A program made the translations under genes and the position numbers. The notes below the pieces were generated by a model. The model was given only the letters and a program-made list of their open reading frames with translations, was not told the origin of the DNA and searched no databases. DNA of 64,000 bases, taken from positions 62,001 through 126,000 of the forward strand of contig BQJD01000004.1 in the NCBI GenBank assembly GCA_021604525.1. The letters are read 5' to 3'. Shown in pieces: positions 42,929 to 46,621 of this stretch; the stretch's first letter is position 1; every line of letters starts with the position of its first letter. Source of the DNA: a marine bacterium B5-7 (GTDB lineage: Bacteria; Pseudomonadota; Gammaproteobacteria; Arenicellales; CAJQKF01).

Positions 42929-43480
42929 TCACGACTGCGGATGCTTCGATCCGAACCAGAGCTTGAGCAACCAGCGCATGGCAGGGAATCGCCATTTCGT
43001 TTCAATCGACTCACCGTCCGGTGTTGTCAAAGTGAATGGATTAACCACCATGGCGCGGGAGACTTCGACCCGATCGATAGGTTTGAGATTGGCATAGTCC
43101 GGATCAGATGCTATCGGTACGCAGATATAAAATATCACCCGCGATTCATCAAGCTTGATGGCGACATCTTCAACTATCACCTTAAGCCCCGTCTCTTCGA
43201 GGGTTTCCCGCGCGGCGGTATCTCGCGACGATTCACCGTCCATATGACTGCCGATGGGTAATTGCAGTCTATTGATCAAACGGTTAATGCCCATCACATA
43301 ACCGTGCGGTGTTTCGATAATGCAACCGGCGGCATCGATGTGATCCGGGTTCACCTCATCTCCAGCAAGTGCATTGTCGTTGCTTGCAATGGTTGCAAAG
43401 GCTGCGAATAAAATGATAACTAAAACTGCAGCTATCGCCCGTGACGCGCTCAACAATGTACTTCTATTCGACTCGTTCAA
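42929..43480 (-). CDS. Exported or membrane-anchored Nudix-domain protein
   Basis: This 183-residue protein begins with a hydrophobic segment at residues 15-33 (AIAAVLVIILFAAFATIA) and a possible signal-peptidase site (NALAG), so the rest should be periplasmic. The Nudix box at 77-99 is complete (G77, E83, R91-E92, E95-E96, G98-L99). Nudix hydrolases normally act on cytosolic nucleotides, so export is unusual. The substrate is unknown. Its start overlaps the end of the upstream exported protein gene by 17 bases, indicating co-expression. Confidence 0.8.
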   Translation of the reverse strand: MNESNRSTLLSASRAIAAVLVIILFAAFATIASNDNALAGDEVNPDHIDAAGCIIETPHGYVMGINRLINRLQLPIGSHMDGESSRDTAARETLEETGLKVIVEDVAIKLDESRVIFYICVPIASDPDYANLKPIDRVEVSRAMVVNPFTLTTPDGESIETKWRFPAMRWLLKLWFGSKHPQS

Positions 43481-44000
43481 GTATTGCGTTGATCTCTCGC
43501 TGAGCTACACCATTGCTAAACCGGTTGAAGCGCAGATCCAGCCCCTTGTCGGTGACAGTTCGATCATAGGTGAGGATTTCGTAACCACCATCATCATTGA
43601 TAAGCAATGCGTTGACAGTAAGCGTATCGCCGTTGATATGTGCCCAGAAATAGGGATCGCCCTTCATCGGGTCAAGAGGTTCATGCCCGCCGAACAGATT
43701 TGATTTCATCGCTGAGCTGAAAATTCCGCCACGACCTGATGGGAAAAAATGAATGGTATAGGATTTGGTTTTCTCGGAGCCATCGGCACGAATCCGGGTG
43801 GTAACCCATTCGAGAGTGAAGCCATCGTCACTTTTCTTGATAGTGACGCTGAGGTCGCGACGATATTCTTTGCCATTGGAAATATCGACGGTTTCACCGC
43901 GATAGGTACCGATAAATTTATCGTACTCGCTAGCCCATGCAGTACTACAGGCAAGTACCAGGAATAACGCGCTTGTTGAAAATAAACGAAACACTTTCAT
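43464..44000 (-). CDS. Exported beta-rich protein of unknown function
   Basis: I do not recognise the family. The 178-residue product has a clear signal peptide (MKVFRLFSTSALFLVLACST, cut near AWAS). The mature part, YDKFIGTYRGETVDISNGKE then RRDLSVTIKKSDDGFTLEWV and HFFPSGRGGIFS, alternates polar and hydrophobic residues as in lipocalin-like or DUF1579-like barrels. GGAGGAGATCG lies just upstream of its ATG as a ribosome site. It precedes the exported Nudix gene and overlaps it. Confidence 0.75.
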   Translation of the reverse strand: MKVFRLFSTSALFLVLACSTAWASEYDKFIGTYRGETVDISNGKEYRRDLSVTIKKSDDGFTLEWVTTRIRADGSEKTKSYTIHFFPSGRGGIFSSAMKSNLFGGHEPLDPMKGDPYFWAHINGDTLTVNALLINDDGGYEILTYDRTVTDKGLDLRFNRFSNGVAQREINAILERVE

Positions 44001-44068
44001 TTCGATCTCCTCCTGTTACTCGTTTGACCGTATATCTGGCCATCCAGACATCGATGTATGTGTCATGC

Positions 44069-44665
44069 CTACAATTTTTGTGAACCGCTCTTCGCTGCGA
44101 TAAAGCCCCACAAGGCGCCGACAGCGAGTCCCGTGGTGTGCGCGGTATTAGCTATTAGAACACCGAACAGTTCAAGAATTCCTGACCAGCAGATTACAAA
44201 CCATATCATGACCATGGTGATAAGGGCGGGATTTAATCTGATGCCAAATGACGGGTTGAACTTGCCCTGCATCCAGAGATAACCGAGGAGAGCAAAAATG
44301 ACACCCGACATTCCGCCGAACTCCGCTCCACTCATAATGTATTGACTTACGTTTGACAATACGCCAGTAACTATAACCAGACTCGCCATTACCCAAGTGC
44401 CACGTGCATACTCGATCAGGTTGCCAAGTTGCCACAGCCACATCATATTCAGGGCGACGTGAAGGAATCCGAAATGAATGAATATCGGTGTGATCAGCCG
44501 CCATAATTGACCATTTCTGATTTCGATCAAACCGGCATTGATATAATTACTGATCAACAGCGGCCGGATTGCATTGAAGTCATCACCGAACTTCGAATAC
44601 AGGGCAACCAGGACTGAAATGCCGATTAATACATACGTCAGGCGGGGGTGGAATCCGGGAATCAT
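44069..44665 (-). CDS. Rhomboid-family intramembrane serine protease
   Basis: The 198-residue membrane protein has six predicted helices. The catalytic dyad is S120 in GGMSGVIFALLGYLW and H176 in IANTAHTTGLAVGALWG. The oxyanion region HFGFLHVALNMMWLWQLG holds the conserved H69 and N73, and WRLITPIFIH is the family L1 loop. It should cut membrane proteins within or near their helices. The gene starts four bases after the preceding small membrane protein gene. Natural substrates of bacterial rhomboids are mostly unknown; anchored neighbours in this cluster are candidates by inference. Confidence 0.92.
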   Translation of the reverse strand: MIPGFHPRLTYVLIGISVLVALYSKFGDDFNAIRPLLISNYINAGLIEIRNGQLWRLITPIFIHFGFLHVALNMMWLWQLGNLIEYARGTWVMASLVIVTGVLSNVSQYIMSGAEFGGMSGVIFALLGYLWMQGKFNPSFGIRLNPALITMVMIWFVICWSGILELFGVLIANTAHTTGLAVGALWGFIAAKSGSQKL

Positions 44666-44668
44666 GGT

Positions 44669-45058
44669 TTACTCGGTGGCGCTCATTTCTATACGGTCAT
44701 TATCTCCGAGGGTCACCTCGCGGCCGTCGAGAGTGATGAAGCGGCGGCCTTCGATAGACATCTTGTATGCCTGGTAGGAAATTTTCAAACCGCTGCCATC
44801 GACCACTTCAATGTTGACGATCTCGTGCTGGTCCTGCCAATGAAGGACGAACAACAGTGCCGACAGGACGACGATCAACCCTAAAATTGCATAAATAACC
44901 GATCTGCTACTGACACCACCAGTGCTGGTAGCGGCACGCGTCGCAGTTGTTTTCGCTTGGGATTTGGCCTGAAGCGGGCCTTTCCTGTCGGTTTTATGAC
45001 GAAATATGAACGCGACAATAAGTACCACGGCGATGGTAAAAAGGACTTTGGTCAGCAT
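44669..45058 (-). CDS. Small membrane protein of unknown function
   Basis: I do not recognise a family. The 129-residue protein has a first membrane helix at residues 4-20, a basic linker rich in Lys, Thr and Ala (about 22-48), a second helix at about 53-72 (SVIYAILGLIVVLSALLFVL) and a short C-terminal beta-like domain containing MSIEGRRFITLDGREVTLGD. It overlaps ycgL by seven bases and is followed almost immediately by the rhomboid gene. Restriction to this operon type in related genomes would support a shared role. Confidence 0.7.
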   Translation of the reverse strand: MLTKVLFTIAVVLIVAFIFRHKTDRKGPLQAKSQAKTTATRAATSTGGVSSRSVIYAILGLIVVLSALLFVLHWQDQHEIVNIEVVDGSGLKISYQAYKMSIEGRRFITLDGREVTLGDNDRIEMSATE

Positions 45059-45318
45059 GGGTTGTCCATTCGGTCGAGCGGGTGGCCTGCCGCCGGCGGC
45101 ATCTGGACATAGTAGCCGTTGCTGTTGATATTTTTTATGACATCCGTGGCGTCCGCCTGGGCGAGTATTCTCTGTGGATGTAGTTCAAGCGCCATCACAT
45201 GCTCAAGATTTCCCAAAAGCTCCACGAGAGATGCAGGCAGATCTCCGATCTCGGCATTCTGTTCGACAAAAAGATACGTATCAGTCTTGCGGCTGGATTT
45301 ATAGATGTCGCAGTGCAT
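45052..45318 (-). CDS. ycgL: YcgL-domain protein
   Basis: This 88-residue protein belongs to the small YcgL family of gammaproteobacteria, whose role is not established. CDIYKSSRKTDTYLFVEQ near the N-terminus and the C-terminal GYYVQMPPAAGHPLDRM match the family. The ATG at 45318 is preferred; an in-frame start at 45354 would add 12 residues without family similarity. It is the first gene of the five-gene minus-strand cluster. Confidence 0.88.
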   Translation of the reverse strand: MHCDIYKSSRKTDTYLFVEQNAEIGDLPASLVELLGNLEHVMALELHPQRILAQADATDVIKNINSNGYYVQMPPAAGHPLDRMDNPC

Positions 45319-45457
45319 GAAAATTCTGTTCCGAATGACCCCGTAATTTACCATGGATACAGGCTTTGATTACGACTCCATCGAACGCCACGATGAAACC
45401 TGCGGTCACTAATACGGTCAATAAGTCACACAGTCGATAACACGACGGAGTGTACCC

Positions 45458-46621
45458 ATGAACTCAAATCAGCCAGGCCAGATGATCGGTAACAGGTTTA
45501 ATTTCGGTATCAATTGGCCATTCGTGACGACGGCTACGGCTATGATGCTGTTGTCGAGTCTGGTTCAGGCTGCATCAATGTTTGAAAGCCGCTGGCCCGA
45601 TACTGATTTTTCCCGGCAATCCGTGGATCTCAGCGAGATCATGAGCGGTGGACCACCCAAAGACGGCATACCGGCTGTTGATCAGCCTCAATTTATCGAT
45701 CTGGATGAGGCTGCGAAGTGGATCGAACCGCTGGAGCCCGTTATTTTGTTGCGTCTCGGCAATGAGGTTAAAGCCTATCCACTGCAAATCCTGATTTACC
45801 ACGAGATCGTTAACGACACGATTGACGGCATACCGGTCGCAGTAACTTTCTGCCCGCTGTGTAATGCCGCCATCGTGTTTGATCGTCGGCTTGCCGGCAC
45901 GCTTTTTGATTTTGGTACGACCGGTTTATTGCGCAACAGCGATCTCATCATGTACGACCGGCAAACCGAGAGTTGGTGGCAGCAATTCAGTGGTCAAGCC
46001 ATCGTTGGCGAAAAAACCGGTTCGGTATTGACGATCCTGCCTGCAGAAATCGTGTCTTTCAAGGCGATGGCTGAACGCTATCCCTTGGTCCAGGTGCTGT
46101 CGAGAGATACTGGTCATTCGCGACCATATGGGCACAATCCCTACCCGGGATATGATCGCATTGATCAGCGTCCGTTTTTGTTTCAGGGCCCAATTGATTC
46201 AAGGCTTCCAGCGATGGAACGGGTTTTCGGAGTGCGCCACGGCCAGATGAGGCGTATCTATCCGTTCAGTGCTTTTGAACATCAGCCGGTTATTAATGAT
46301 CGCATCGGCGATCTAGCTCTGCTCGTATTGGCTACCGACAAGGTGCGTTCGGCGCTCGATAGCGAGATGATCGGAGAGGGTCGGCTGATCAATAATGTAG
46401 TCGCGTACTCACGGCAGGTCGATGGACAGGTACTGACTTTTGAGAGATCCGGTGAGTTTCTGGTCGATACACAAACCGGTAGTCTATGGAACCGTTTCGG
46501 CGAGGCAATAGAGGGTGATTTGAAGGGTCGTTCACTGCAACTCATCGAAGGTGGGTCGCATTTTGCCTTCTCCTGGCTGGCCTTTAATCCTGATGTCGAG
46601 ATCTACGATTTCACGCGCTGA
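45458..46621 (+). CDS. Exported DUF3179 domain protein
   Basis: The 387-residue protein has an N-terminal signal segment (WPFVTTATAMMLLSSLVQAA, residues 20-39). The DUF3179 domain follows, with KAYPLQILIYHEIVNDTIDG, VTFCPLCNAAIVFDR and SDLIMYDRQTESWWQQFSGQ, then SRDTGHSRPYGHNPYPGYD. The CPLC pair is a family feature and may bind metal or form a disulfide. Function is unknown. GGAG before the ATG at 45458 supports the start. Confidence 0.88.
   Translation: MNSNQPGQMIGNRFNFGINWPFVTTATAMMLLSSLVQAASMFESRWPDTDFSRQSVDLSEIMSGGPPKDGIPAVDQPQFIDLDEAAKWIEPLEPVILLRLGNEVKAYPLQILIYHEIVNDTIDGIPVAVTFCPLCNAAIVFDRRLAGTLFDFGTTGLLRNSDLIMYDRQTESWWQQFSGQAIVGEKTGSVLTILPAEIVSFKAMAERYPLVQVLSRDTGHSRPYGHNPYPGYDRIDQRPFLFQGPIDSRLPAMERVFGVRHGQMRRIYPFSAFEHQPVINDRIGDLALLVLATDKVRSALDSEMIGEGRLINNVVAYSRQVDGQVLTFERSGEFLVDTQTGSLWNRFGEAIEGDLKGRSLQLIEGGSHFAFSWLAFNPDVEIYDFTR

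Follow-up and report, generated by a model that had tools for sequence, protein, structure and literature searches.

The window, the whole 64,000-nucleotide stretch of DNA analysed here, encodes an exported Nudix protein that belongs to a conserved family; this family is the main result and the part worth following, and the proposal of a five-gene system around it is weak. Nudix enzymes are generally regarded as cytosolic house-cleaners. The data jointly point, with a probability of roughly 0.6, to an intact Nudix pyrophosphohydrolase that is exported to the periplasm, stabilised by disulfides and directed at soluble diphosphate substrates, and whose gene was a late joiner to a neighbourhood of ycgL, TMP (a two-helix membrane protein), rhomboid and beta-barrel genes. 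The gene order, the conserved export signal, the intact Nudix box, the cysteine pattern and the predicted Nudix fold were directly observed.

An exported Nudix family with its own cysteines

The Nudix gene occupies positions 42929–43480 of the minus strand and opens with TTG. Its product contains a complete Nudix box, GSHMDGESSRDTAARETLEETG (residues 77–98; 43187–43252, minus strand), which fits Gx5Ex7REx2EExG; the superfamily motif Gx5Ex7REUxEExGU was counted as matched, with threonine at the U position preceding xEE. The box residues G77, E83, R91, E92, E95, E96 and G98 are invariant in the 64 members of the family, and Glu139 and Arg164 are likewise invariant across the alignment. The general NUDIX model of Pfam recognised the protein above its gathering score (5e-5), the scores against every NCBIfam equivalog of a named subfamily (MutT, RppH, NudB, YtkD and others) fell far below the cut-offs, and no Pfam or NCBIfam model names the family. 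The AlphaFold model (pLDDT 83.8) matched Nudix structures in Foldseek with an E-value of 2.6e-7, assigning the Nudix fold, and the matches, which include NUDT6, NUDX1 and DR1025, single out no substrate. The protein shares a complete box and the fold with cytosolic MutT-type Nudix hydrolases such as mycobacterial MutT2 (5zrc), DR1025 and NUDX1, but differs from them in its export signal and two invariant cysteines.

In the export signal (43361–43480, minus strand), a signal peptidase I site, read by eye, probably follows NALA. The preliminary description had placed the complete Nudix box behind an export signal and had named a wrong start codon as the finding that would overturn this. The window gene has no ATG and a GTG at 43354 lies just ahead of the domain, as would be expected if the N-terminal segment were an artefact and the protein a cytosolic one starting at that GTG; the homologues make this exceedingly improbable. 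Those from the same genus open with ATG upstream of the signal (G001, MDERRRAVFSVILLATLITSATIADD...; G002, MDRRRGAAIGALVACLWTPAIDAG...) and lack any start codon between the signal and the domain, the lone in-signal TTG of the G001 gene falling within the hydrophobic stretch. Outside the genus, in G027, G009 and others, the frame also opens with an ATG followed by a signal, and the conserved cysteine pair is atypical of cytosolic paralogues. In the window itself, the TTG candidates at 43480, 43456 and 43453 all precede the hydrophobic stretch. The signal is therefore genuine and not an artefact of the start codon. In G003, a genome of the same family, the Nudix frame (L017, 7078–7631) is in place, lacks an ATG and is broken after EVSDVFS; decay and a sequencing or assembly error cannot be told apart as the cause.

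An alignment scan of 84,980 species genomes, seeded by the single peptide pattern TA[AH]RETxEE and hence giving a lower bound on family size, returned 78 loci. Ten hits of cytosolic type and five fragmentary frames were removed, and the remaining 63 together with the window protein gave the 64 aligned members. They come mostly from Gammaproteobacteria (Alteromonadaceae, Halieaceae, Alcanivorax and others); L125 and L152, from bins assigned to Nitrospira and Acidobacteriota, may reflect transfer or misbinning. A tblastn search for plasmid carriage gave no match. All 64 members have an uncharged stretch of 12–32 residues upstream of the domain; in the small set of controls, such stretches of 12–14 residues also occur in two of the five aligned own-genome paralogues and in one rejected hit. 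The lipobox column holds cysteine in 47 of the 64 members, among which aspartate at +2 is rare (three members), and this rarity fits the outer membrane rather than lipid work at the inner membrane. From their sequences, most of the members with four cysteines look like lipoproteins, and the proteins of the window's clade are probably soluble after cleavage by signal peptidase I.

Cysteines at the positions of Cys53 and Cys120 are present in every member (64/64). A second pair, with one cysteine after the signal and the other inside the Nudix box, is complete in 51 members and wholly absent from 13, never being represented by one cysteine alone. Cys53 is absent from all five own-genome paralogues whose box was strict enough to align (five of 11), and the AxC pattern of strand A is missing from the ten hits set aside as cytosolic-type. 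On the tree, the second pair traces to a single gain or loss event, and a test of independent pairs had one pair, without statistical support; its co-occurrence therefore does not amount to many independent tests and is consistent with, rather than proof of, two disulfides. In the structural model, Cys53 lies in strand 50–54 and Cys120 in strand 115–122, which we take to belong to one sheet of the Nudix fold. We infer that outside the cytosol the fold is stabilised by a Cys53–Cys120 disulfide, to which the four-cysteine branch adds a second one.

Genes surrounding the Nudix gene

Five minus-strand genes lie head to tail in the order YcgL, TMP, rhomboid, exported beta-barrel and exported Nudix. 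Re-checking the coordinates reproduced exactly the head-to-tail arrangement described earlier, with overlaps of 7 bases (YcgL/TMP) and 17 bases (barrel/Nudix) and a gap of 3 bases (TMP/rhomboid); the rhomboid and barrel genes are separated by 68 bases. The five reading frames stand where they had been placed within 42929–45318, but this end falls inside ycgL and the cluster really reaches 45354. A gene for a DUF3179 protein with a signal (PF11376, E 2.3e-96; 45458–46621) is divergent from ycgL, and in G008 and G014 a similar gene likewise lies close to the cluster.

The YcgL-domain protein (100 aa; 45052–45354, minus strand) was assigned by PF05166 (E 7.2e-27, 94 bits against a gathering score of 25). 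TMP (129 aa; 44669–45058, minus strand) has an MLTKxLFT start and a basic loop and matches no Pfam family. Across its homologues the MLTKILFT start is almost invariant, and the conserved C-terminal domain, also without any Pfam family, is probably periplasmic. The rhomboid (44069–44665, minus strand; Pfam Rhomboid, 3.2e-28) is a GlpG-type protease core whose GxSG serine, Ser120 in GMSG, and C-terminal His176 are invariant in 18 homologues, which bears out the intact dyad reported before. GlpG structures are its best match (E 9e-43) and share the catalytic core and Ser/His dyad, but the window protein lacks the N-terminal cytosolic domain and is recurrently linked to TMP and ycgL within this order; as a core-only protein, it scored 146.7 bits against the TIGR04239 equivalog cut-off of 250. 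An assignment as a rhombosortase acting on GlyGly-CTERM proteins was rejected, the TIGR03902 score being 49.6 bits against a cut-off of 84 and the GlpG model scoring far higher. GlpG-type rhomboids in Shigella clear orphan membrane proteins, according to PMC7232013, and by analogy the rhomboid probably serves in membrane-protein quality control, with TMP as a possible client.

The barrel protein (178 aa; 43464–44000, minus strand), noted earlier as exported and beta-rich, has a signal peptide and a predicted 10-strand beta-barrel, its model showing ten long strands (pLDDT 88.6). It belongs to no named family, with neither a Pfam family nor a PDB relative found by sequence, and its structural match is nitrobindin-like and weak (E 2.7e-4). 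It resembles nitrobindin- and lipocalin-type barrels in the predicted 10-strand architecture, but identity is 13%, TM scores are 0.54–0.63 and the conserved haem histidine is missing. An identity as nitrobindin was rejected, as no histidine is invariant or nearly so among 18 barrel homologues. The barrel gene is present twice in the window's own genome, the other copy (L239, G000:C100, 1717–2301) adjoining an apparent IS66-type transposase fragment; G001 of the same genus likewise has a second copy (L238).

Gene order was surveyed in 41 genomes of the order, with adjacency counted from coordinate tables. YcgL and TMP are neighbours in 19 genomes, TMP and rhomboid in 16 (about six families), rhomboid and barrel in 10, and barrel and Nudix in four, namely the window's genome, G001, G002 and G003, which form one family. 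The window, G001 and G003 (with the Nudix frame broken) have all five genes in one uninterrupted run, and in G002 the set is split at contig ends. The preliminary description would have fallen if the genes were not co-located in relatives; the same order is seen again in the three nearest genomes, so the cluster is not due to chance. Among 185 genomes sampled across the class, TMP was found in eight, including the window's, and the barrel in two, and no ycgL, rhomboid or barrel homologue was detected beside TMP in the other seven. The wider neighbourhood in several families contains gltA, the DUF3179 gene and xni, named by eye from similarity to the window's genes, with gltA directly before ycgL in G007; with these housekeeping genes and the DUF3179 gene present, adjacency by itself says little about function. 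Within the cluster, ycgL-TMP-rhomboid forms the older unit; it frequently includes the barrel gene and is dispersed among about ten families of the order. This neighbourhood of a single order is old and prone to reshuffling, and the Nudix gene is a late addition in the window's family only.

Outside that family, neither a rhomboid nor ycgL accompanies the exported Nudix gene, whose relatives elsewhere have unrelated surroundings or occupy other places in the genome; G009 has the exported Nudix protein and no detectable rhomboid of this type. Nudix gene neighbours differ by lineage, and gene context does not indicate the substrate. In Alteromonadaceae (L131–L187), the Nudix lipoprotein gene is divergent to an RND-type efflux pump at 35 loci and precedes an acyl-CoA-dehydrogenase-like gene at 31. 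These partners, the commonest ones and named from their sequences, represent lineage-specific synteny, and a function drawn from them was rejected.

Predicted function and alternative readings

The Nudix protein would be exported by Sec and cleaved by a signal peptidase, with lipidation in most of its relatives, and would fold oxidatively in the periplasm. It is predicted to use a metal and the invariant glutamates of the box to hydrolyse soluble X-P-P-Y compounds; Glu139 is also acidic and conserved, and may take part. Its most likely substrates are soluble molecules with a diphosphate linkage that enter the periplasm, for instance nucleotides from outside the cell, dinucleotides or nucleotide sugars, which it would cleave for salvage or clean-up. 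The last bases of the barrel gene lie within the Nudix gene, and the two are probably translated together, an arrangement that needs no direct link to the rhomboid.

The preliminary description instead suggested that the rhomboid could release or mature its anchored neighbours. On this reading the five genes would form a dedicated envelope system, with the rhomboid cutting TMP or the N-termini of the Nudix and barrel proteins to set them free. The order that the window shares with G001, G003 and contig-split G002, the overlapping or nearly overlapping genes and the TMP-rhomboid adjacency across about six families are in keeping with such a system, and TMP is a conceivable client in the light of orphan-protein clearing by the Shigella enzymes (PMC7232013). 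However, the Nudix gene joins in one family of four genomes only, no rhomboid lies close to its relatives elsewhere, and the barrel and TMP are each found without the others; YcgL is not a membrane protein, and gltA and xni share the neighbourhood. The N-termini resemble typical signals for signal peptidase I or for lipoproteins, which require no rhomboid. Neither the five-gene functional system nor maturation of the neighbours by the rhomboid found support, and we consider the system improbable; the position of the Nudix gene beside a rhomboid is apparently a local accident of genome arrangement. An action on an envelope lipid-linked diphosphate, for instance in undecaprenyl diphosphate recycling, also seems unlikely. 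Lipid diphosphates exist in the periplasm and geranyl diphosphate hydrolases (NUDX1) are among the nearest structural matches, but these match no better than nucleotide enzymes, Asp+2, the inner-membrane signal, is absent from most of the lipoprotein members, proteins of the window's clade appear to be soluble and the recurrent neighbours show no link to cell-wall genes. A bolder version of the reading as a periplasmic hydrolase, put forward tentatively and as rather unlikely, is a marine gammaproteobacterial family of periplasmic or outer-membrane disulfide-bonded Nudix enzymes with a dedicated extracytoplasmic substrate novel for Nudix, the barrel co-made in the window's family presenting or collecting that substrate.

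Secreted Nudix effectors of plant pathogens act in hosts, as summarised in a review (PMC4981494). Set side by side by description, they resemble the exported family in leaving the cytosol, but the family has periplasmic or lipoprotein signals and occurs mostly in marine-bacterial genomes. Literature searches, which bear little weight as they mostly covered journals outside subscription, returned nothing relevant on periplasmic, secreted or lipoprotein Nudix proteins beyond these effectors, and nothing relevant on YcgL with a rhomboid.

A conserved exported Nudix branch with its own cysteine signature implies periplasmic diphosphate chemistry in common marine bacteria, perhaps in the salvage of dissolved nucleotides. 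Ala-x-Cys at strand A and a second cysteine at strand C, combined with an export signal, would serve as a marker for such enzymes.
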